A stretch of 64,000 bases of DNA, taken from the NCBI RefSeq assembly GCF_036898465.1, contig NZ_JARUMJ010000001.1:8308001-8372000 (forward strand), in the 5' to 3' direction. Below the pieces are notes generated by a model. The model was not told where the DNA came from. It saw only the letters and a program-made list of their open reading frames with translations, and made no database searches. Of the stretch, positions 8,171 to 46,271 are shown piece by piece (positions within the stretch are counted from its first letter, which is position 1; each line of letters begins with the position of its first letter). The translations under genes and the position numbers were made by a program. The stretch is from Streptomyces sp. B21-105 (GTDB taxonomy: Bacteria; Actinomycetota; Actinomycetes; Streptomycetales; Streptomycetaceae).

Positions 8171-8566
8171 ATGACCAGCAAGAACGTCGACATCGCGCGT
8201 GAGTACTTCCAGGCCGTCCGGACGGGTGACCTGGCCAAGGTGGGCGAGCTCCTGGACGAGGAGATCGTCTGGCATCAGCCGGGCGCCAACCGGTTCTCAG
8301 GTGAGCGCAAGGGGCGCGACGCCGTCTTCGCGATGCTCGGCGGGATGATGGAGGCCAGTCAGGGCTCCTTCGCCATCGACGCGATCCACGCCCTCATGGG
8401 CAACGGCGACATGGTGGCCGCCTCGATCCACTTCGCCGGGCGGCGGGAGGACGCGTCCATGAGCATGGACGGCGTGGACGTCCTGCGCCTCGAGGACGGC
8501 AGGATCGTCGAGATGTGGCTGTTCTCCCGCGACCAGGCGGCCGAGGACGCCTTCTGGGGGCAGTAA
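8171..8566 (+). CDS. SnoaL-like (NTF2-fold) protein, copy 1
   Basis: A 131-residue NTF2-like protein. The family motif LDEEIVWHQPG near residue 30 and the terminal MWLFSRDQAAEDAFWGQ are typical of small ketosteroid-isomerase/SnoaL-like proteins, many of which have no known reaction. ATG 8171 is matched by the same start in copy 2, although an in-frame start at 8156 exists. From codon 10 to 8 bases past the stop it is identical to the gene at 12289-12684. An HxlR regulator beside the second copy suggests control by that protein. Confidence 0.85.
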   Translation: MTSKNVDIAREYFQAVRTGDLAKVGELLDEEIVWHQPGANRFSGERKGRDAVFAMLGGMMEASQGSFAIDAIHALMGNGDMVAASIHFAGRREDASMSMDGVDVLRLEDGRIVEMWLFSRDQAAEDAFWGQ

Positions 8567-12288: not shown

Positions 12289-12684
12289 ATGACCAGTAAG
12301 AATGTCGATATCGCCGGTGAGTACTTCCAGGCCGTCCGGACGGGTGACCTGGCCAAGGTGGGCGAGCTCCTGGACGAGGAGATCGTCTGGCATCAGCCGG
12401 GCGCCAACCGGTTCTCAGGTGAGCGCAAGGGGCGCGACGCCGTCTTCGCGATGCTCGGCGGGATGATGGAGGCCAGTCAGGGCTCCTTCGCCATCGACGC
12501 GATCCACGCCCTCATGGGCAACGGCGACATGGTGGCCGCCTCGATCCACTTCGCCGGGCGGCGGGAGGACGCGTCCATGAGCATGGACGGCGTGGACGTC
12601 CTGCGCCTCGAGGACGGCAGGATCGTCGAGATGTGGCTGTTCTCCCGCGACCAGGCGGCCGAGGACGCCTTCTGGGGGCAGTAA
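12289..12684 (+). CDS. SnoaL-like (NTF2-fold) protein, copy 2
   Basis: A 131-residue protein identical to copy 1 from residue 12 onward, with Ala-Gly in place of Ala-Arg just before that point. The fold and motifs are as in copy 1 (HQPGANRFSGERKGRDAVF). ATG 12289 follows a GGGAG at 12278. An in-frame ATG at 12163 would add 42 residues with poor coding character and is rejected. It converges with the HxlR-family gene, whose own divergent partner is a third, decayed SnoaL piece at 13207. Confidence 0.85.
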   Translation: MTSKNVDIAGEYFQAVRTGDLAKVGELLDEEIVWHQPGANRFSGERKGRDAVFAMLGGMMEASQGSFAIDAIHALMGNGDMVAASIHFAGRREDASMSMDGVDVLRLEDGRIVEMWLFSRDQAAEDAFWGQ

Positions 12685-17508: not shown

Positions 17509-17539
17509 GTAACATTAGACGTCATATGAATTTCGTCAA
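17509..17539 (-). promoter_or_regulatory. Promoter with GntR-type operator for the beta-helix gene
   Basis: On the minus strand TTGACG (17539-17534) is followed, after two bases, by ATTCATATGACGTCTAATG and then TTAC. TAATGT or AATGTT lies in -10 position 16-17 bases on. The 23-bp element matches the one at 18454-18476 at all but five positions and has the same offset from its -35. Binding between -35 and -10 would block transcription. The likely ligand is the GntR protein encoded between the two sites. Confidence 0.75.
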
Positions 17540-17581
17540 TAGGTCGAGCGTCGTCGACCCGGTCGGCCCCGGGCATGCGAA

Positions 17582-17608
17582 CGCCCCCGGCCTGTCGGCT
17601 CGGGGGCG
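17582..17608 (-). terminator. Hairpin downstream of the GntR gene
   Basis: CGCCCCCG (17582-17589) and CGGGGGCG (17601-17608) form an 8-bp stem with an 11-base loop, 19 bp after the stop of the minus-strand GntR gene and before the divergent promoter of the beta-helix gene. There is no T-run, as usual in Streptomyces. Confidence 0.75.
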
Positions 17609-17626
17609 AGGTCGGTGCGGGTGCCC

Positions 17627-18394
17627 TCAGAAGGTGGGGGAGCCTACGTTCGGCAAGCGGCGGCGGCTCCAAGCGGTCTGGATGTGTGCGGCCATGGCCT
17701 GTGCGGCCCCGTCGGGGTCCCGGGCCAGCAGCCGCTCGGCGACTGCGCGGTGCTCTTCGTTGGCCTGGTGGCACGCGGTCTCGTCCGGCGTGCCGTTGTA
17801 CAGGAAGGTCGTGCGCGCCTGGGCGTGGAGGATCCGGATGATGGAACGGCCGAGCCTGTTGTGGGATGCCTGGAGGATCCGGTCGTGGAAGGCCACATCG
17901 GTCTCGATGAAGCGTGCCGGGACGGCGGTCTCCTCGTCGAGCCGGGCGAGCAGCCGCTCGATGGCTCGCAGGTCGTCGTCGGTGGCCAGCTCCGCGGCCT
18001 GGGCGGTCATCTGGGCCTCCAGCGTGGACCGGATGTCGACCAGCTGGTCGAGGACGACGAGCTGGTCGTCGTGCTGGACGGTCGCGGCGAGCACCACGGG
18101 GTCGAGGAGGTTCCATTCCTCGGGCGGGGTGACGGTGGTGCCGTAGCCCTGCCGGGCGAGGACCAGCCCCTTGGCCTCCAGGGACTTGACCGCCTCGCGG
18201 ACGGTGATGCGGCTGACGCCGAACGTCTCGCAGAGCTCGGGTTCCACCGGCAGGGTCGATCCCGGAGGAAGGACGCCCGACACGATCGAGTCGGTCAGGC
18301 TCTCCATGACTGCCTGCGCCAGCCGGGCCGGACGCTTGGGCCAGGGCTTGAGAACGGGAGGCTCTCCTCCTCTGCCGGCGCTGTCCTTGGCCAT
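17627..18394 (-). CDS. GntR-family (FadR/FCD) transcriptional regulator
   Basis: A 255-residue repressor-type protein. The winged helix at ~25-90 shows DSIVSGVLPPGSTLPVEPEL, FGVSRITVREAVKSLEAKGL and a wing at RQGYGTTV. The FCD sensor domain follows with metal- or ligand-site residues in FIETDVAFHDRIL, EEHRAVAERLL and the His of MAAHIQTAW. It sits between two units that share an operator-like element. It is transcribed away from the dehydratase gene, with that element in the 130-bp gap, so it may also control itself. A sugar-acid ligand such as L-fuconate or its dehydration product would fit but is inferred. Confidence 0.9.
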   Translation of the reverse strand: MAKDSAGRGGEPPVLKPWPKRPARLAQAVMESLTDSIVSGVLPPGSTLPVEPELCETFGVSRITVREAVKSLEAKGLVLARQGYGTTVTPPEEWNLLDPVVLAATVQHDDQLVVLDQLVDIRSTLEAQMTAQAAELATDDDLRAIERLLARLDEETAVPARFIETDVAFHDRILQASHNRLGRSIIRILHAQARTTFLYNGTPDETACHQANEEHRAVAERLLARDPDGAAQAMAAHIQTAWSRRRLPNVGSPTF

Positions 18395-18445
18395 GTGTGC
18401 CCCCTTGCTGGTGCGGATGACGGCGAGTCTACTGTGCGGAACTTC

Positions 18446-18476
18446 TTGACAGCATTCGTATGACGACTTACGTTAC
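18446..18476 (+). promoter_or_regulatory. Promoter with GntR-type operator for the dehydratase-transport operon
   Basis: TTGACA (18446-18451) is followed, 17 bases on, by TACGTT (18469-18474). ATTCGTATGACGACT-TACGTTAC (18454-18476) overlaps the spacer and -10. The same element is found inverted upstream of the beta-helix gene at 17509-17531, two bases from its own -35. It therefore probably co-regulates the secreted glycosidase with the catabolic operon. Confidence 0.8.
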
Positions 18477-18523
18477 ACGAAAATTTCGCAGCAGTACTTC
18501 TCCTGTGGCAAGGGGTGCACGCC

Positions 18524-19639
18524 GTGCGCATTACCGAAGTCGAGTGCCATCCGGTCCGGGTGCCCGGGGTCAGTCCGCCCTTCGTCTGGCGGGACGGACT
18601 CCTGGGCAGCCCGTCCGAGGGCGAGGCCGCGGCGCTGCGCATCTGCACGGACGAAGGGGTCGAGGGGGTGGCGATGTCCCCCCGGCGGGGCAGCGGTGTC
18701 ATCCTGGCGGACCTGCTGGACCGCGTCCTGCGCAAGGAGTTGGTGGGTCAGGATCCGCTGCAGCGGGAATGGCTCTGGCACCGCATGTGGGAGCTGGACC
18801 GCACCGAGGAGCTTCCGCTCTACCTGCTGGGTCTGGTCGACACCGCCCTCTGGGACCTGGCCGGACGACTCGCCGACCGGCCCACCTGGCAGATGCTCGG
18901 CGGTTACCGTACCTCGATACCCGCCTACGCCTCCACCGTCACCTACTCCTCGGTCGAGGAGTACCTGGACATCGCCGACCAGGCCCTCGAACTCGGCTAC
19001 CCGGCCATCAAGCTCCACGCCTGGGGCGACGCCCGCCGCGACGCCCGCCTGTCGGTGGCTCTGCGCGAACACGTGGGGGACGACATCCCGCTGATGTTCG
19101 ACGGCTCGGCGGGCTTCGACCTCCCCGACGCGATCTATCTCGGGCACGCCCTCTCGGGCGCCGGGTACCTCTGGTACGAGGAGCCGATGAGGGAGTTCAG
19201 CGTCACCGCGTACAAGCGTCTCGCCGACGCGGTGGCCGTTCCCCTCCTCGTGGCGGAGACGTCCGACGGGGCGCACATGAACTCGGCCGACTTCATCCAG
19301 GCCGGCGCCGCCACCTTCGGAGTCCGCGCCTCCACCCAGCTGCGGGGCGGCTTCACCGGCGCGATGCGCACCGCCCACCTCGCCGACGCCTACCGGCTGC
19401 GCGCCGAGGTGCACGGGCCGGAGATCCCCAACCGGCACCTGTGCATGGCCATCTCCAATACCACCTACTACGAGTCGCTGGTCATGGGCAACCCCATCGG
19501 CCGCGAGAGCGGCATCGACGCCCACGGCCTCGTCCATGCCCCCACCGGTCCGGGCGTCGCCCTTCCGGCGGGCTTGGATTACCCTCCCGTCCTTCAAAGA
19601 TTTGTCGACAAGGAGACCGTCACTCCGCCCCGGGCCTGA
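18524..19639 (+). CDS. Enolase-superfamily sugar-acid dehydratase (probable L-fuconate dehydratase role)
   Basis: A 371-residue member of the mandelate racemase/muconate lactonizing group. The barrel carries the Lys of AIKLHAWGD, metal ligands in MFDGSAGFD, YEEPM and VAETSDG, and a late His in EVHGPEIPN, consistent with a sugar-acid dehydratase. GTG 18524 has AAGGGG 8 bases upstream. A GTG three codons earlier (18515) overlaps that site and is less likely. It is first in the operon that continues with the transporter. Substrate assignment to L-fuconate rests on the neighbouring fucosidase, aldose dehydrogenase and lactonase genes, not on the sequence alone. Confidence 0.85.
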   Translation: MRITEVECHPVRVPGVSPPFVWRDGLLGSPSEGEAAALRICTDEGVEGVAMSPRRGSGVILADLLDRVLRKELVGQDPLQREWLWHRMWELDRTEELPLYLLGLVDTALWDLAGRLADRPTWQMLGGYRTSIPAYASTVTYSSVEEYLDIADQALELGYPAIKLHAWGDARRDARLSVALREHVGDDIPLMFDGSAGFDLPDAIYLGHALSGAGYLWYEEPMREFSVTAYKRLADAVAVPLLVAETSDGAHMNSADFIQAGAATFGVRASTQLRGGFTGAMRTAHLADAYRLRAEVHGPEIPNRHLCMAISNTTYYESLVMGNPIGRESGIDAHGLVHAPTGPGVALPAGLDYPPVLQRFVDKETVTPPRA

Positions 19640-19733: not shown

Positions 19734-21097
19734 ATGAACGACGACGTTCCGGTTTCCTCCCGCCGCCAGCTCAGAGACGCGGCCGCCGCCGTCCTGGGCG
19801 CGGTCTCCCTGCTCGCGATCGCTGCCTGCGGCAGCGCGGACCCCACACCCACGGCGACTTCCTCCCCCGCCGCCTTCAAGCCTGTCGCGCAGCAGGAAGG
19901 CAGCGAGATCACGGTCTGGGCGGACGCCGCCCGTGTGCCCGGCGTGCAGGCGTACCAGGAGGCGCACCCCGACGTGAAGCTGAAGATCGTCACGTACAGC
20001 GGCGACGCCAACGGGGCCAACGACCTGCAGACCAAGGTGCAGCTGTTCGACCGGACCGGCAGCGGCTGGCCCGACGTCGCCTTCAGCGCCAACGTCAACG
20101 ACGGCAGCTGGGCCGCCCAGGGCAAGTCCCCCTATGCCGCGCCCGTCGACAAGGGCCTGGTCCCGCTGTCGACCCTGAACGGATTCGCGCACGGCGCACT
20201 GAACCCCTGCAAGGTCAACGGCAGCACCTACTGTCTGCGCAACGACCTCGCCCAGAACGTGCTCTGGTACAACAAGGAGCTCATGGGCAAGTGGGGCTAC
20301 TCCGTCCCGACCACCTGGGAGGAGTACCAGGCCCTCGGTGAGCGGGTCGCCAAGGAACACCCCGGGTACCTGGTCGGAACCGCCGGGGACGCCTGGACGC
20401 CGGAGGTGTACTTCTGGGCGAGTCAGTGCACCGCCAGCACCGCGACCGGTGCCAAGAAGGTCACCGTGGACCTGCACGACTCCAAGTGCACCCGGATGGC
20501 CAGGCTGCTCGACACTCTGATCGCCAAGGGATCGGTCGCCAAGGACACCGTCTTCAGTGCCGGCTTCATCAAGAACCAGGCGAGCAAGGTCCTCATGCTC
20601 CCCGGCCCGTCCTGGTACGGGCAGGTGCTCTTCAACTCCACCTTCAAGATCCCCAAGGGGCAGATCGCCGCTGCTTCACCGCTGAAGTTCGAGGGCGATG
20701 ACAAGAACTACACCGGCAACGTCGGCGGCGGCCTGTGGTTCGTCTCCTCCCACAGCAAGAACCTCAAGACGGCCTCCGACCTGGTCACCTGGATGACCAC
20801 CTCCGACGACTACCAGGCCACCGCGGCCACCTACCCCGCCTACAGGCCCGCGGCCACCACCTGGCTCGCCAACCAGCGCAGCACCGGCTACTTCGCCAAC
20901 GACATCAGCCCCGTCTTCGAGGAAGCCGCGGAACTGATCTGGCCGGCTGGTCCGCCACCCAGTACAGCCAGGAAGCGATCTACTCCTCCACCGTGATCCC
21001 GGCCCTGAACTCCGGCAAGACCCTCACCGACACCCTGGACACCTGGCAGAAGGCCATCACCGACAAGGCCGAGTCCCTCGGATACACCGTCAACTAG
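19734..21097 (+). pseudogene. Sugar ABC transporter substrate-binding lipoprotein, frameshifted near the 3' end
   Basis: A family-1 extracellular solute-binding protein with a lipobox (LLAIAACGSAD, Cys32). The body is full length to ~residue 405 (AELIWPAG), where the frame fails. Sense resumes in another frame (GWSATQYSQEAIYSSTVIPA, then TLTDTLDTWQKAITDKAESL) to the stop at 21095-21097. Restoring one G at about 20945 (CCG-GGC-TGG) rebuilds a normal protein. Without it the last ~50 residues are replaced by a Pro-rich tail of ~10. ATG 19734 follows GAGG. It is second in the operon. A sequencing error cannot be excluded. Confidence 0.9.
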
Positions 21098-21109: not shown

Positions 21110-22030
21110 ATGACCACCCACCTCGCAACGGAGCGGAGCGGCCGCCGCGGCGACCGCTCGGCCCGCAACCCGGTCGGACGCGCCGGATACGTCTTCGTCT
21201 CCGGCTACGTCCTCCTCCTGCTCGCCTTCGGCGTCCTGCCCACCGGTTACGCGGTGTGGCTGGCACTGTCCAACTCCCGCAGCCAACTCGTCGGGATCGG
21301 CAACTTCACCCGCACCTTCAGCGACTACCGCTTCGGACCGGCCTTCCTCCACATCGGCCTGTACCTGGTGGTGTGGCTGGCCAGCCTGATGATCCTGGTG
21401 GTGCTGCTCTCCCTGATGCTGCACGGCCGCATGCGCAGGGCCTCCACCAGCCTGCGGTTCCTGTTCTACCTGCCGGGCGCCCTCGCGGGGGTGGCGAGCG
21501 TACTGCTCTTCCTGATCCTCCTCGACCCGGCGGCCAGTCCCGTCGGCTGGCTGCTGAAGGGCTTCGGCTGGAACACCCTCGCCCAGGTCAACGCCCCCGA
21601 CCACCTGCCCGTTCTCTTCACCGTCATCGCCTTCTGGACCGGGGCCGGCGGCTGGATCGTGGTCATGTACGGCGCGCTCAACAGCATCCCCGACGAGATC
21701 CTGGAAGCCGCCCGCATCGACGGCGCCAACACGCTCCAGATCGCCCTGCGCATCCAGATCCCGATGCTCACCAAGTGGATCGCGTACATGCTGATCCTGG
21801 CCTTCGCGGCCGGCACCCAGCTCTTCGTCGAGCCACAACTGGTCTCCCTCGCCAGCTGGGGCATGATCCCCGACAGCTGGTCGCCGAACCAGCTCTCCTA
21901 CCAGTACGCCTTCCAGGCAGGCGACTTCAACGGCGCGGCGGCGCTCTCCGTCGACCTCCTCATCCTGGGCCTCGCCTGCGCGGCGCTCGTCGTCTTCCGT
22001 ACCGGCCTGTTCGACAGGGACGAACGATGA
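21110..22030 (+). CDS. Sugar ABC transporter permease (MalF-type)
   Basis: A 306-residue inner-membrane permease with six predicted membrane segments. The first is GYVLLLLAFGVLPTGYAVWL and the last is LLILGLACAALVVF. The cytoplasmic EAA loop reads EAARIDGANTLQIALRIQIP and contacts the shared ATPase. It starts 12 bases after the binding-protein stop and overlaps the next permease by ATGA. No ATPase gene is in the operon; Streptomyces CUT1 transporters usually share MsiK, encoded elsewhere. Import of L-fucose or a fucosyl oligosaccharide is inferred. Confidence 0.9.
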   Translation: MTTHLATERSGRRGDRSARNPVGRAGYVFVSGYVLLLLAFGVLPTGYAVWLALSNSRSQLVGIGNFTRTFSDYRFGPAFLHIGLYLVVWLASLMILVVLLSLMLHGRMRRASTSLRFLFYLPGALAGVASVLLFLILLDPAASPVGWLLKGFGWNTLAQVNAPDHLPVLFTVIAFWTGAGGWIVVMYGALNSIPDEILEAARIDGANTLQIALRIQIPMLTKWIAYMLILAFAAGTQLFVEPQLVSLASWGMIPDSWSPNQLSYQYAFQAGDFNGAAALSVDLLILGLACAALVVFRTGLFDRDER

Positions 22031-22992
22031 CCACGGCTCACACGACCACAGCCCGCCGAACCCCGCCGCCCCACAACGCCGGCGCCCGCACCAGCCCGAG
22101 GAAACCCATGCGCCGGACGCGCCGCCCCAGCTCACTGGCCGCCCGGCTGGCCTGGCTCATCGTCATGGGCCTGGCCGTGCTGTTCTTCTGTGTGCCGGTG
22201 GCGTGGCTCCTGCTGGCCCCGACCAAGACCGACGGCCAGATCGTGCGGGACAACCCCTTCTCCTTCGGCTCCCTGGGGGCCGTCGCCGACACCTGGCACC
22301 ACCTCTACGCCTTCCAGGACGGCGCCATCCTCACCTGGTTGCAGAACTCGGCGCTCTACACGTTCGGCGCGCTGATCCTCACCCTGGTGACGTCGATCCC
22401 CGCCGGGTACGCGCTGGCGCTCACCCAGTTCATCGGCCGGCGGATGCTGCTGACCGTCACCATGCTCGTGATGCTCATGCCGACCGCCGCGATGGTGCTG
22501 CCCCTGTACCTGGGAATGAACGCCGTGCACCTGGACGGCACGATCTGGTCGGTCATCCTGCCGTTCTCCTTCTTCCCGTTCGGGGTCTATCTCACCTACA
22601 TCTACTTCTCCTCCAACGTCCCCTCCGACCTGCTGTCCGCCGCACGGATCGACGGCTGCTCGGAGTGGCAGGTCTTCCGGCTCATCGCGATGCCGCTGGC
22701 CAAGCCGGTGATCGCCCTGGTCGGCTTCTTCAACTTCGTCGGCAACTGGAACAACTTCTTCCTGCCGTTCGTGATGCTGCCCGACAGCTCCCAGTATCCG
22801 GCGCAGGTGGGACTGAACAACCTGCTCGCCGCCTCACCGCTGTTCAACACCTCCAGCGGCGGGGGAAACCAGATCCTGCGGCCCGAACTGGCCCTGGCCA
22901 CCCTGGTGACCATCGTTCCCGTTCTGATCGTGTTCCTGTTCTCCCAACGCGCTCTCGTGTCCGGCATGCTCGCCGGTGCGACCAAGGAGTGA
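22027..22992 (+). CDS. Sugar ABC transporter permease (MalG-type)
   Basis: A 321-residue partner permease, translationally coupled to the previous gene (ATGA overlap at 22027-22030). A basic cytoplasmic N-terminus of ~40 residues precedes six membrane segments. The EAA loop is SAARIDGCSEWQVFRLIAMP and the C-terminus is SQRALVSGMLAGATKE, typical of CUT1 permeases. It is intact, unlike the binding protein and the following enzymes. Confidence 0.9.
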   Translation: MTTAHTTTARRTPPPHNAGARTSPRKPMRRTRRPSSLAARLAWLIVMGLAVLFFCVPVAWLLLAPTKTDGQIVRDNPFSFGSLGAVADTWHHLYAFQDGAILTWLQNSALYTFGALILTLVTSIPAGYALALTQFIGRRMLLTVTMLVMLMPTAAMVLPLYLGMNAVHLDGTIWSVILPFSFFPFGVYLTYIYFSSNVPSDLLSAARIDGCSEWQVFRLIAMPLAKPVIALVGFFNFVGNWNNFFLPFVMLPDSSQYPAQVGLNNLLAASPLFNTSSGGGNQILRPELALATLVTIVPVLIVFLFSQRALVSGMLAGATKE

Positions 22993-23207: not shown

Positions 23208-23549
23208 ATGAAACGCGTCGCCCAGACGATCCGCCTGCGGCCGGAGCACCGTGACCAGTATCTGCGCCTGCACTGCGAGGTATGGCCGGCTGTCGAGGCC
23301 GCACTGCGGGCCGCGAACATCCGCAACTACAGCATTTTTCTGCGCGAGGACACGCTGTTCGGCTACTTCGAGTACCACGGCGACGACTTCGAGGCGGACA
23401 TGGCCGCTATCGGCGCCGACACGGCCACCCAAGCCTGGTGGAAGCTCACCAGCCCCTGTCAGGAGTCCTGGGCCGACAGCGGCACAGCGGGCAACTGGTC
23501 GGACCTGACCGAGATCTGGCATCTGACCCCTTCGGCGACAGCCACCTGA
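23208..23549 (+). CDS. RhaM-type sugar mutarotase (L-rhamnose/L-fucose)
   Basis: A 113-residue small ferredoxin-fold protein of the L-rhamnose mutarotase family, which interconverts alpha and beta anomers of 6-deoxy sugars. The His of LRLHCEVWPAVEAAL, the NYSIFLRED segment, the Tyr of LFGYFEYHGDDFE and WWKLTSPCQ match the family active-site arrangement. ATG 23208 follows GAAGGA. It comes 215 bp after the permease genes and before the oxidative genes, so supply of the right anomer to the aldose dehydrogenase is a reasonable role. Confidence 0.85.
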   Translation: MKRVAQTIRLRPEHRDQYLRLHCEVWPAVEAALRAANIRNYSIFLREDTLFGYFEYHGDDFEADMAAIGADTATQAWWKLTSPCQESWADSGTAGNWSDLTEIWHLTPSATAT

Positions 23550-23576: not shown

Positions 23577-24049
23577 GTGAAACTGCTACGAGTCGGCGCG
23601 CCCGGCGAGGAGCGGCCCGCCGCCGTGCGTACCACCCGCGCCGCCCTGCCGTATCTGCGGCCCTCGTCCCACGCGGCGGTCGTCAACACCTGCTCCATCG
23701 CTGCCACCGCGGGCCCTTCCCACCGCGCCCTGTACTCCGCCAGCAAGGGCGAGGTGCTGTCGCTGACCCTGGCGATGGCAGCGGACCACGTCCGTGAGGG
23801 CAACCGCGTCAACCCCGGCACCGCCGACACCCCTGGGTGACCCGGCTCCTGGACGCCGCGGACGACCCGGAGGCCGAACGTGCCGCCCTCGACGCACGCC
23901 GGCCCCTGGACCGCCTCGTCACCGCGGACGAGGCGGCGGCGGCCGTGGTCCACCTGGCGAGCCCCGCCGCGGCCTCCGTCACCGGCATCGCCCTGGCCGT
24001 CGACGGTGGCCTGCAGGGACTCCGGCTGCGCCCGGCGGCCGGCTCATGA
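23577..24049 (+). pseudogene. Deletion chimera: FAH-hydrolase start fused to an SDR dehydrogenase, plus frameshift
   Basis: GTG 23577 with GAGGAG upstream begins KLLRVGAPGEERPA, the usual opening of fumarylacetoacetate-hydrolase-family proteins. After ~15 codons (near 23622) it becomes the second half of a short-chain dehydrogenase (VNTCSIAATAGP, then YSASK with the catalytic Tyr and Lys). A one-base loss in the C-run at ~23834 shifts the frame. The restored end reads DRLVTADEAAAAVVHLASPA and ALAVDGGLQ. The Rossmann N-half and the whole FAH body are gone. In the L-fucose pathway these would be the 2-keto-3-deoxy-L-fuconate dehydrogenase and the final hydrolase. Confidence 0.8.
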
Positions 24050-25115
24050 GAACGACCGCGCTGGGCACCACCGACGTCAGAGTCACCGAGCTGTCCTTCG
24101 GGCCGCCGGCATCGGAAACCTCTTCCGCCCGGTCACCGACGAGGCCGCGTCCGCCGCGGTGGAGGCGGCCTGGGACGTGGGCATCCGCACCTTCGACACC
24201 GCCCCGCACTACGGACTCGGGCTGTCCGAGCGCCGCCTGGGTGCCACGCTGCGCGGACGCGACCGCGACACGTACACCGTCTCCACCAAGGTCGGGCGGC
24301 TGCTCGAACCCGCCCCGGAGGGCGGCCGCGGTGACGATCTCGCACACGGCTTCGCCGTGCCCGACACCCACCGCCGCCACTGGGACTTCAGCTCCGACGG
24401 CGTCCTGCGCTCCCTGGAAGCGAGCCTGGACCGCCTCGGCCTGGACCGGGTGGACATCGCCCTGCTGCACGACCCGGACCACCACGCCGAGCAGGCCCTC
24501 ACCGAGGCGTACCCGGCGCTGGAACGGCTGCGCGGCGAAGGCGTCGTCAAGGCGATCGGCGTCGGAGTGAACCGGTGCGCGCTCCCCGCCCGCTTCCTGC
24601 GCGAGACCGACATCGACGTGGTGCTGCTCGCCGGCCGCTACACCCTGCTGGAACAGGAAGGGCTGGCGGAAGTACTGCCCGAGGCCGCCGCCCGCGGCAG
24701 GAGTGTCATCGTCGGCGGGGTTTTCAACTCGGGTCTCCTCACCGACCCGAAACCCGGGTCCATGTACGACTACGCGCCCACCCCACCACATGTGCTGGAC
24801 CGGGCCCTGCGCATGAAGGCGGTCACCGAACGCCACGGCGTACCGCTGCGCGCAGCCGCTCTGCGCTTCCCGTTCGGCCATCCGGCGGTCGCGAGCGTAC
24901 TGTCCGGTGCGCGTTCCGCCGAGGAGGTCCGCGACACGGTGGACCAGCTGCGGCGAACGGTACCGGCCGCGGTCTGGGACGGAATACGCGCCGAGGGGCT
25001 GCTGCCCCCACACGTCCCTGTCGCCCTCGCCGCCTCACGGGTCGACGAAGCCGATCGGCCGCAGGGCGAGTCGAGGAGTCGTGGGGGTGACCGCCATGGA
25101 GGGGAACACCGCTGA
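24046..25115 (+). pseudogene. D-threo-aldose 1-dehydrogenase (L-fucose dehydrogenase) with one-base frameshift
   Basis: An aldo-keto reductase overlapping the previous gene by ATGA. The first 17 codons read MRTTALGTTDVRVTELSFG, then sense moves to another frame with AAGIGNLFRPVTDEAA and runs to the stop at 25113-25115. Restoring one G at about 24102 (GGG-GCC-GCC) rebuilds ~355 residues. The AKR tetrad is visible: Asp in RTFDTAPHYG with Tyr, Lys in VSTKVGRLL and His in ALLHDPDHH. In the NAD(P)-dependent pathway it would oxidise L-fucose to the lactone. Its 3' end overlaps the lactonase gene. Confidence 0.9.
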
Positions 25116-25998
25116 GGGCGTCATCGACGCGCACCACCACGTGTGGGACCTCTCCGTCCGCGACCAGGACTGGATCACCGGACCGGAACTCGCCCCGCTG
25201 CGCCGCGACTTCCTGCTCGCCGACCTGGAGTCCGAGGCCCGGGCCTCCGGCGTCACCGCGACGGTCCTGATCCAGACGATCGACGTGCCGGAGGAAACGC
25301 CCGAGTTCCTGGCGTTGGCCCAGGACAGCGACCTGGTGGCCGGCGTCGTCGGCTGGATCGACCTGACCTCCTCAGATGCCGCCCGCGCGCTCGCGGTGCT
25401 GCGGGAGGGACCGGGCGGCGAGTACCTGGTGGGCATCCGACACCAGGTGCAGGGCGAATCCGACCCTCGCTGGCTGATGCGGCCGGACGTACGACGTGGG
25501 CTCGCCGCGGTGGCCGAGGCGGGGCTCGTGTACGACCTGGTCGTCAGGCCCCACCAGCTCGCGGCCGCGTATGAGACCGCCCGACTGCTTCCCGGCCTCA
25601 CCTTCGTACTCGATCACGCGGGCAAGCCCCCCATCGCCTCGGGCGAGCTGCGGCCGTGGGCGGACTCAGTTCGTCTGCTGGCCTCGCTGCCCAACACCGT
25701 CTGCAAGCTCTCCGGCATGGTGACCGAGGCCGACTGGGACCGGTGGAGCGTCGAGGACCTCCGGCCATACGCGGACACGATGCTGGACGTCTTCGGCCCG
25801 CGGCGGCTGATGTTCGGATCCGACTGGCCCGTCTGCCGGCTGGCCGCCACATACGCCGAAGTCATCTCCACCGCACGGGAGTTGATGGCCGCTCTCCGTC
25901 CCGACGAACAACACGAGGTCTTCACCGGAACCGCTCTGAGGACCTACGGCCTGACGTTCACCGGCTCACCGGCCGCTCAGGAAGCACCATGCGCATAG
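25087..25998 (+). CDS. Amidohydrolase-type sugar lactonase (probable L-fuconolactonase)
   Basis: A 303-residue metal-dependent hydrolase of the amidohydrolase/lactonase group. The metal-binding DAHHHVWDLS motif is at ~15, followed by GIRHQVQGESD, TFVLDHAGKPPIASG and MFGSDWPVC with the late Asp. These enzymes open sugar-acid lactones made by aldose dehydrogenases. GTG 25087 has GAGGAG at 25073-25078; ATG 25096 is the alternative. It overlaps the upstream dehydrogenase by 29 bases and the LutA-like relic by 10, so the genes were one operon. A close paralogue lies at 45447-46271. Confidence 0.9.
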   Translation: MTAMEGNTAEGVIDAHHHVWDLSVRDQDWITGPELAPLRRDFLLADLESEARASGVTATVLIQTIDVPEETPEFLALAQDSDLVAGVVGWIDLTSSDAARALAVLREGPGGEYLVGIRHQVQGESDPRWLMRPDVRRGLAAVAEAGLVYDLVVRPHQLAAAYETARLLPGLTFVLDHAGKPPIASGELRPWADSVRLLASLPNTVCKLSGMVTEADWDRWSVEDLRPYADTMLDVFGPRRLMFGSDWPVCRLAATYAEVISTARELMAALRPDEQHEVFTGTALRTYGLTFTGSPAAQEAPCA

Positions 25999-26223
25999 TT
26001 CCCTCCATCACCTGTTTCAACGACGTGATGTTCCCCCGCACCGGCCGCGCGGTGACCGAACTGCTGGAACGGCTCGGCCACCGTGGAGTTCCCGCAGGAC
26101 CAGACCTGCTGCCGCCAGACGCACTTCAACACCGGCTACCGCCCCGAGACCCTGCCCATGGTGCGCCGATTCGCGGAGGTCTTCGACGGCTACGACGCCG
26201 TGGTCACCCCTTCCGGCTCCTGA
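25989..26223 (+). pseudogene. LutA-like (CCG-domain) lactate-utilization gene, frameshifted and truncated
   Basis: ATG 25989 overlaps the lactonase stop. The frame gives ITCFNDVMFPRTGRAVTELL, typical of the N-terminus of the LutA/GlpC Fe-S oxidoreductase subunit. One base is missing near 26083, and the other frame continues EFPQDQTCC, HFNTGYRPETLPMVRRFAEV and TPSGS, then stops at 26221-26223 where the next Cys block should follow. About 70% of the protein and the usual LutB and LutC genes are absent. L-lactate oxidation would complete the fucose route, which ends in pyruvate and L-lactate. Confidence 0.75.
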
Positions 26224-45360: not shown

Positions 45361-45450
45361 ATGAGCACCGCCCAGTCCGCCGTGAGCTGCGCGTCCGGCG
45401 TCGCCGTGCCCGCGTACGCGCCCGCGCTCGTCGTGCGGAGGCCGGCGTGA
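45361..45450 (+). CDS. 29-codon ORF coupled to the lactonase gene
   Basis: ATG 45361 has CGAGGAG eight bases upstream. The peptide starts MSTAQSAVSC and ends VVRRPA, and its stop overlaps the next start as GTGA (45447-45450). This arrangement suggests translational coupling, so it may be a leader peptide or a remnant of an upstream gene whose body was deleted. There is no Cys-rich or regulatory amino-acid run. It is too short to classify. Confidence 0.45.
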   Translation: MSTAQSAVSCASGVAVPAYAPALVVRRPA

Positions 45451-46271
45451 CCGTCGACGCGCACCACCACGTCTGGGACCTGTCGGTGCGCGACCAGGAC
45501 TGGATCGCCCGATGCAACCCGCTGCGGCGGGACTTCGGCGTCGGCGACCTGGCGCCCGAGGCCCGCGCGGCGGGGATCGACCGCACGGTCCTCGTCCAGA
45601 CGATCACGGTGGCCGAGGAGACGCCCGAGTTCCTCGCCCTCGCGGCCGGGAGCGACCTGGTCGCGGGCGTCGTCGGCTGGACCGACCTGACCCGCCCGGA
45701 CGTCGCCGACGAACTGGCCAGGCTGCGGGAGCTGCCCGGCGGGCGGTACCTCAAGGGGATCCGGCACCAGGTCCAGGGCGAGAGCGACCCGGAGTGGCTG
45801 CTGCGGGCCGACGTACGGCGAGGGCTCGCCGCAGTCGCCGACGCCGGTCTCGTCTACGACCTGGTGGTGCTGCCCGGCCAGCTGCCGGCCTGCGTCCGTG
45901 CGGCCGACGCGCTGCCCGGACTCACCTTCGTGCTGGACCACCTCGGCAAGCCACCCATCGCCTCCGGCGCGCTGGAGCCCTGGGCGCGCGACGTCCGGGC
46001 GCTCGCCGCCCTGCCCAACACCGTCTGCAAGCTCTCCGGCATGGTGACCGAGGCCGACCCCGCGTCCTGGACCGTCGACGACCTGCGCCCCTACGCGGAC
46101 ACGGTGCTGGACGCGTTCGGCCCGGCCCGGCTGATGTTCGGCTCGGACTGGCCGGTATGCACGCTGGTCGCGTCGTACGGCGAAGTCGTCGCAGCCGCTC
46201 GGCAGTTGACCGGCCCGTCCGACCACGACCAGATCTTCGAGGCCACCGCCGCCCGCGTCTACGGCCTCTGA
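45447..46271 (+). CDS. Amidohydrolase-type lactonase, paralogue of 25087-25998
   Basis: A 274-residue amidohydrolase with the same landmarks as the fucose-island enzyme: VDAHHHVWDLSVRDQDWI, VQTITVAEETPEFLALA, GIRHQVQGESDPEWLL and MFGSDWPVC. Most residues match along the whole length. It lacks the ~10-residue N-terminal extension and the C-terminal tail. GTG 45447 is coupled to the 29-codon ORF. No sugar genes adjoin it. It overlaps the convergent lipase maturation factor gene by 13 bp. It is intact and might replace the island enzyme. Confidence 0.9.
   Translation: MTVDAHHHVWDLSVRDQDWIARCNPLRRDFGVGDLAPEARAAGIDRTVLVQTITVAEETPEFLALAAGSDLVAGVVGWTDLTRPDVADELARLRELPGGRYLKGIRHQVQGESDPEWLLRADVRRGLAAVADAGLVYDLVVLPGQLPACVRAADALPGLTFVLDHLGKPPIASGALEPWARDVRALAALPNTVCKLSGMVTEADPASWTVDDLRPYADTVLDAFGPARLMFGSDWPVCTLVASYGEVVAAARQLTGPSDHDQIFEATAARVYGL

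Follow-up and report, generated by a model that had tools for sequence, protein, structure and literature searches.

A GntR regulator may control a secreted GH141 glycosidase gene and an enolase/ABC transporter operon through a predicted operator in the promoter spacer

Local GntR repressors that act on adjacent target genes are a well-known kind of system. For the FadR subfamily, the operator consensus is TNGTNNNACNA (Rigali, as quoted in the section considered from PMC2230225), and the sections considered from PMC4494728 describe TKGT and ACMA boxes in which GT and AC are typically separated by 3 nt, as in the case of DgoR, FadR, LldR and PdhR; the word "fucose" is absent from the main text of PMC4494728. 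In Streptomyces coelicolor, HypR is described (PMC6608401, in part) as an FCD GntR repressor whose site in its own promoter covers the -10 and whose regulon holds a catabolic operon and a putative collagenase. According to the same sections of PMC6608401, the HypR motif, CTNTGC(A/C)ATGTCAC, has no clear symmetry and is found at diverse positions, and the system concerns hydroxyproline, not a deoxysugar. Among the titles and abstract openings covered, no Streptomyces GntR fucose regulon and no GH141 operator were named; subscription papers lie largely outside this coverage, which makes it weak evidence of absence.

The locus considered here lies in a window of 64,000 nucleotides (the whole stretch of DNA that was analyzed), which corresponds to positions 8,308,001-8,372,000 of a 9.2-Mb genome whose named close relatives are Streptomyces. 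The GH141 gene and gntR, both on the minus strand, are followed by the enolase/ABC operon on the plus strand, and two 23-bp elements flank the FCD-type gntR gene, one located 5' of the GH141 gene and the other 5' of the enolase/ABC operon (Table 1). A sequence-only reading of the window had placed both elements 2 bp after TTGAC(A/G) and had reported no third copy. Their coordinates and the 2-bp offset are borne out by the sequence, and a scan of the window with the degenerate 23-mer at no more than 3 mismatches returned only these 2 matches, compared with 0 in 100 dinucleotide shuffles. The two elements are also the sole exact matches to the 17-bp core in the 9.2-Mb genome.

Table 1. Positions (window coordinates) of the genes and of the predicted promoter and operator parts at the locus
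Feature	Position	Strand	Basis or remark
GH141-type secreted glycoside hydrolase, 1053 aa	14262..17423	-	GH141 region and C-terminal DUF1349 domains; signal peptide by eye
GH141-side 23-bp element	17531-17509	-	ATTCATATGACGTCTAATGTTAC; 2 bp after TTGACG
Predicted -10, GH141 promoter	17511..17516	-	AATGTT at 17-bp spacing, TAATGT at 16 bp; sequence and conservation
Predicted 15-bp operator, GH141 promoter	17517..17531	-	ATTCATATGACGTCT; core TCATATGACGT at 17519-17529; TNGTNNNACNA fit 4/6
-35 box TTGACG, GH141 promoter	17534..17539	-	Sequence; among 27 distinct GH141-side sites, TTG invariant and AC almost invariant
GC-rich inverted repeat GCCCCCG...CGGGGGC	17583..17607	.	Between gntR stop and GH141 promoter; sequence
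FCD-domain regulator of the GntR family (255 aa), predicted to repress both units	17627..18394	-	PF00392, PF07729
Possible -10 TAGACT of gntR promoter	18427..18432	-	Points away from enolase operon; inference
-35 box TTGACA, enolase operon promoter	18446..18451	+	Sequence; TTGAC invariant in 26 distinct sites
Enolase-side 23-bp element	18454-18476	+	ATTCGTATGACGACTTACGTTAC; 2 bp after TTGACA
Predicted 15-bp operator, enolase promoter	18454..18468	+	ATTCGTATGACGACT; core TCGTATGACGA at 18456-18466; dyad centre 18461; exact TNGTNNNACNA
Predicted -10 TACGTT, enolase promoter	18469..18474	+	Exactly 17 bp past -35; TAYGTT conserved
Possible second, weaker operator	18470..18480	+	ACGTTACACGA; 11-bp FadR-like dyad, 5/6; centre 14 bp downstream; overlaps -10
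Enolase-superfamily protein, probably sugar-acid dehydratase	18524..19639	+	MR_MLE_N, MR_MLE_C; start 18515 also possible
ABC sugar-binding protein (SBP)	19734..20996	+	SBP_bac_1
ABC permease 1	21110..22030	+	BPD_transp_1
ABC permease 2	22027..22992	+	BPD_transp_1
L-rhamnose mutarotase-type gene	23208..23549	+	TIGR02625 51.3 bits, cutoff 99.6
FAH/SDR remnant	23577..24047	+	FAH-type hydrolase start fused via internal deletion to SDR second half, with frame change; compared with intact L022
Aldo/keto reductase (AKR) gene, putative L-fucose dehydrogenase	24043..25049	+	Frame change near start
Amidohydrolase, L-fucono-1,5-lactonase-like	25099..25998	+	NF052480 229.6 bits, cutoff 400; PF04909
Broken, shortened LutA-type gene	25989..26220	+	Disrupted in the window

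The regulator belongs to the FadR subfamily by both of its domains: its N-terminal GntR winged helix-turn-helix scores 72.9 bits against PF00392 (cutoff 27) and its C-terminal FCD domain 86.4 bits against PF07729 (cutoff 24.3). The top PDB match is 7c7e (E 1.4e-29), labelled "putative DNA-binding transcriptional regulator" in the match table, and the next is 9jpj, a pyruvate dehydrogenase complex repressor. We take 7c7e to be DgoR, the D-galactonate regulator of E. coli, presumably a sugar-acid regulator encoded beside an enolase-type dehydratase. By the curated NCBIfam cutoffs, the protein is not assigned to the named equivalogs NanR, PdhR, LldR, GlcC, ExuR, UxuR or FadR; the 25 families listed of 28 are all below cutoff, the best being the NanR model (118.3 bits versus a cutoff of 260).

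The earlier treatment of the 23 bp as one uniform operator is revised here, while the sequence itself stands. Two base pairs plus a 15-bp operator make up a 17-bp spacer, after which TAYGTT takes the place of a -10, so that the 23 bp amount to an operator plus a -10; the whole 23 bp as a single operator was dropped because distant loci keep only the 15-bp part and a -10. The suggestion that the elements overlap the -10 has a reasonable position in its favor (TACGTT and AATGTT, both at 17 bp), but the hexamers stay predicted; a sigma-70 consensus scan reported no promoter. It had also been said that the motif is not a standard FadR consensus, which is incorrect: the enolase-side core, TCGT-ATG-ACGA, is an exact TNGTNNNACNA. 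The predicted operator thus agrees with the FadR-subfamily consensus, and we infer that the GntR protein is what binds these sites.

Sites for alignment, column identity and TNGTNNNACNA scoring were collected with a degenerate pattern at no more than 2 mismatches, and identical sequences were dropped from the column-identity and TNGTNNNACNA counts (L038/L135 and L041/L136 are apparently the same records). The core fits TNGTNNNACNA at 6/6 in 25 of 26 distinct enolase-side sites; among the 27 distinct GH141-side sites, the fit is 6/6 in one, 5/6 in 17, 4/6 in eight (including the window) and 3/6 in one. The two sites of the window share their register but are not equal (6/6 on the enolase side versus 4/6 on the GH141 side). 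A Kutzneria site and the site of a gntR paralogue in genome G183 are the perfect 15-bp palindrome ATTCGTATTACGAAT. The possible second, weaker dyad is a feature of the enolase promoter only, with 5/6 in 20 of the 26 distinct enolase-side sites and at most 4/6 on the GH141 side. Within the 15-bp operator, mean column identity reaches 0.97 on the enolase side, against 0.54 upstream of it and 0.71 over the 20 bp that follow; the GH141-side values are 0.90, 0.44 and 0.59, respectively. Selection of the sites with the 2-mismatch pattern somewhat inflates the operator figures. GH141-side flanks vary by group, and TTGAC, the operator and AAYGTT are kept in nearly all, with the exception of L041 (TTGCAG and GTAAC). 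At the candidate gntR -10, a GAGTCTAC-type block is present in most of the relatives aligned. The GC-rich inverted repeat may separate the gntR and GH141 transcripts; a terminator scan, which demands a T-run, reported none there.

An exact search for the core in 295 genomes of the genus was positive in 18, with 0 for the reversed-pattern control. A search of the same 295 genomes for the regulator (E ≤1e-60) matched 25, of which 18 were at least 70% identical, and these are the same 18 genomes that bear the core. The case that the sequence-only reading had named as contrary to its proposal, an element missing where the GntR gene is kept, thus did not occur among regulators of at least 70% identity. 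Shared descent links these species, and the result is therefore a strong association, not a series of separate events. Fourteen of the 18 genomes have a single pair of exact sites, on opposite strands and 0.8-1 kb from each other. The others are G107 (a pair separated by 2.4 kb, with an additional gene between), G013 (three sites), and G222 and G062 (one exact site each, the second site of G062 appearing with one more degenerate letter). When the 18 site-bearing genomes were scanned with the 23-mer at no more than 2 mismatches, extra sites were found in G013 and G183 only, in both cases close to the locus. In G183, an operator pair surrounds an apparently decayed gntR (L132; read from the sequence, the gene caller giving no gene there), and an intact gntR paralogue of 72% identity with its own operator is located about 7 kb off.

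Both sites were found in 21 of 23 named loci chosen by regulator homology (52-94% identity) and one site in the other 2; in three remote loci (27-38% regulator identity), the element was found in none. Where a site is missing, its target was not found either: the stretch read of G222 (L038/L135) yielded no enolase, and that of Kutzneria L042 no GH141. Additional GH141 copies bear their own site, either in tandem (L030) or about 9 kb away (L150), and in L033 and L034, which have no enolase, the site precedes a binding-protein gene. A simple GC3 script supplied the gene calls in relatives, so starts and some gene calls may be wrong, and loci with an incomplete flank were counted as scanned. The claim that one FCD-type GntR controls both units gains support from the co-occurrence of site and regulator and from the 21 of 23 loci with both sites. 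On these comparisons, one repressor very probably controls a secreted sugar-releasing enzyme together with the operon for uptake and breakdown of the released sugar.

In the genome, the 17-mer core at no more than 3 mismatches occurs at 22 places; the next best after the two elements are two places with 2 mismatches, and the check for third regulon members covered these two. Both were rejected, one (L137) lying inside a called ORF and the other (L138) at or just before the porphobilinogen synthase start without a TTGAC box. A genome scan for the cassette found one further place, at 9,023,045 (L190; TTGACGTTATTCATGGGATGTCTAGCATT), 5' of a secreted lectin-GH62 gene; it is without the TATGACG core, two similar sequences exist in G264, and it was read as a different operator type. 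The promoter-like TTGACGTYATTMATGGGATGYCTAGCATT seen at L190 and in G264 (C104:99703 and C127:15477) has a similar layout and a different core, and is perhaps the operator of another regulator. In the Kutzneria genome, a further 2-mismatch place (L145, G297 C24:41968-41990) lies away from the regulator locus, and the cassette scan found no TTGAC-type cassette there.

As for the sugar, the GH141 assignment by PF21231 (GH141_M) is positive and marginal, at 27.3 bits versus a cutoff of 27 (run on a longer ORF), and the protein matches PDB 5mqp, BT_1002 (E 2.6e-40), which we take to be the founding GH141 member and an alpha-L-fucosidase. In intact relatives, for example L022, the operon comprises enolase, SBP, two permeases, mutarotase, FAH, SDR, AKR, lactonase and LutA. 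The gene kinds of an L-fucose operon are present in L022, but the window lactonase and the L022 FAH fall below equivalog cutoffs and the dehydratase is without a named family. The nearest PDB entries to the enolase are 1rvk/4hcd, and neither NCBIfam nor PDB comparison assigned it to a named dehydratase. A second fucose-type set (FAH, a 445-aa enolase, SDR and AKR) is located at 8.89 Mb (L156, 8,880,000-8,899,000), with its own, different GntR gene and a LacI-like gene (by eye) and without the element; its FAH and SDR are 87% and 82-85% identical to those of L022, its AKR is 78% identical, and its enolase is 26% identical to that of the window operon. At 45447-46271, the window has a second L-fuconolactonase-like gene, which shares 73% identity with its L022 counterpart.

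L-fucose is our best guess for the substrate, and a moderately favored one. A regulon for a different sugar, such as another 6-deoxyhexose or a uronate or aldonate from plant or algal glycans, is a possibility to be kept in mind, although we doubt it. It would accommodate the low identity between the two enolases, the best matches of the L022 FAH to an L-rhamnonate pathway model (311.8 bits, below the cutoff of 500) and of the mutarotase to an L-rhamnose model, the different enolases that accompany regulators of 46-54% identity, and the fact that GH141 includes a xylanase. Against it, the top match of the lactonase is L-fucono-1,5-lactonase, the FAH and SDR of L022 are close to those of the second set, a GH29 gene adjoins nearby in the window, the GH141 protein matches BT_1002, and GH141 is listed among the families with fucosidase activity in the section considered from a review (PMC10154630). 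The GH29 gene is flanked by two near-identical small ORFs (391/396 bases; window 8171-8566 and 12289-12684), and the repeat around them is about 500 bp long at 95% identity.

In the window strain, the operon is disrupted between 19734 and 26220: the SBP tail that corresponds to the final 50 residues of the L022 SBP is in another frame (to 21094), a deletion affects FAH and SDR, the SDR and AKR genes have frame changes, and LutA is shortened. FAH is largely or wholly absent too in L023, L024, L031 and L133, among others. It could be argued that the locus is decaying and that its operators, as remnants, now control little, particularly as FAH and SDR are intact at 8.89 Mb without the element. 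We consider this unlikely, since the regulator, GH141, enolase, permeases, mutarotase and lactonase genes have open reading frames and the consensus is preserved at both sites; some of the disruptions, moreover, look like single-base frame changes and are possible assembly errors. With the operon damaged and a second set elsewhere, coupling to full catabolism may run via the second set, or be lost. The proposal that release is coupled to uptake and catabolism is weakened in this strain by the disrupted distal genes.

The register of the operator persists in more distant relatives. Within the genus, six of seven loci with homologues of 48-51% identity have TTGACG-NN-ATACGTCATACGAGT in the same register, and the seventh has no cassette in the stretch scanned; the locus of a 64% homologue (L094/L134) has CTGACA and a related sequence, with no enolase gene called nearby. 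In a set of 394 genomes of the class, regulator homologues of 46-54% identity were found at 21 loci in other genera. Fifteen of these carry a TTGACR-like box (5/6) and the operator in the same register, compared with 0.2 of 21 on average over 20 rounds of shuffling, and in the other six the cassette is absent from the stretch scanned. The core in 13 of the 15 is ACGTCATACGA, the reverse complement of TCGTATGACGT, at unchanged coordinates, and these thirteen loci also preserve TA(C/T)(G/C)TT as the -10; L171 retains the ATG orientation (ACGTATGACGA), and L158 has ACATCATACGT. Such an inversion would make no difference to a symmetric dimer, and it puts position 8 of the element on the dyad axis.

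The same loci bear on another reading of the site, namely a longer even-symmetry dyad, CRTATGAC|GWCTWAYG (or two overlapping half-operators 7 bp apart), with the -10 conserved through binding. Mean pairing at centre 11.5 is 0.63, the same as at centre 8, and the L134 locus has CGTATG-N4-CATACG, but the distant loci invert the core about centre 8, not 11.5, the Kutzneria site and that of the G183 paralogue are perfect about centre 8, and in FadR-type sites GT and AC are typically 3 nt apart (PMC4494728, in part); we regard this reading as improbable and retain the 15-bp dyad centred at position 8.

Wider stretches were read for nine of the 21 other-genus loci. In L179-L183 and L187, the site is located 5' of an ABC transporter/enolase operon, followed in L180, L181 and L182 by lactonase-, AKR-, SDR- or FAH-like genes, and L179 shows the window layout again, with a GH141-domain gene and two sites around gntR. 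In L184, the site is 5' of a GH141-like gene (GH141_M 22.3, below the cutoff of 27) that heads transporter genes. A GH141-like gene is in line with enolase genes on the same strand in L185 and L187; L185 has a core without a -35, and no site was found in L186. No cassette was found with the GH141-like genes near regulators of 48-49% (L152 and L154) and 52% identity (L140). At L140 (G226), where the 52% regulator lies beside the GH141 gene, the upstream TTCATCATATGAATGACATAAT forms a TTCAT-N3-ATGAA dyad outside the usual register. That the 23 bp chiefly serve as a strong promoter common to both units, or are recognized by some other regulator or a sigma factor, with the adjacent GntR not binding, is very improbable: the element does span the -35 and -10 positions, and conserved hexamers are common in many promoters, but the best-conserved columns include the spacer, for which we know of no conservation in ordinary promoters, the occurrence of the element coincides exactly with that of the regulator gene in 295 genomes, and the core is inverted at the same spacing in the loci of distant regulators.

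Repression of both units via the 15-bp dyad in the spacer, relieved by a sugar acid, is the best explanation as a whole, and one in which we have considerable confidence. A GntR dimer would bind the dyad (core TCGT-N3-ACGA), whose 15 bp and the 2 bp before them take up the whole 17-bp spacer from -35 to -10, and RNA polymerase would be excluded from both promoters. Once a sugar acid made from the incoming sugar (L-fuconate, probably, or its 2-keto-3-deoxy form) binds the FCD domain, the protein would leave the DNA, and the gene for the secreted GH141 enzyme would be switched on along with the enolase/ABC/catabolic operon. With the GH141 gene under the weaker of the two operators, leakage or earlier induction would be expected for the secreted enzyme.

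The promoter layout recurs in other actinobacteria and, as far as the genomes compared suggest, is a class-wide cassette. More tentatively, it may be an old actinobacterial cassette in which the 17-bp spacer serves as the exact dimer operator, inverted about its own dyad with the register kept, that joins new GH141 copies, each time bringing extracellular deoxysugar release under the same repressor, and in which the glycosidase operator is deliberately weaker than the uptake operator. The analysis provides a specific, testable operator and regulon for an FCD-GntR branch that is found in several actinobacterial genera and lies outside the named NCBIfam families listed. Through it, GH141 glycosidases are connected with a sugar-acid pathway, and a single repressor is predicted to coordinate release, uptake and breakdown. 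In distant relatives, the inverted operator offers a natural test of dimer symmetry within a promoter spacer, and the weaker GH141 operator predicts an ordered induction.

Compared with known systems, the window system resembles the L-fucose oxidative pathway (NF052480 lactonase, BT_1002) in that lactonase, FAH, SDR, AKR and mutarotase occur together in L022-type relatives, and differs in a dehydratase without a named family, a lactonase and FAH below model cutoffs, and genes partly broken in the window strain. DgoR (7c7e) is the closest solved relative of the regulator by sequence, but the window system is predicted to cover a secreted glycosidase as well, and its half-site is different. HypR is likewise a Streptomyces FCD GntR protein, whereas its motif has no clear symmetry and is at varied positions, in contrast to the fixed-register dyad of the window system. 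With FadR-subfamily repressors in general, the system shares the winged helix-turn-helix plus FCD, the dyad with 3 nt between GT and AC, the promoter-overlapping operator and the catabolic operon next door; unlike theirs, its predicted operator is fixed in one register, fills the 17-bp spacer, and has the half-site TCGT instead of TGGT.
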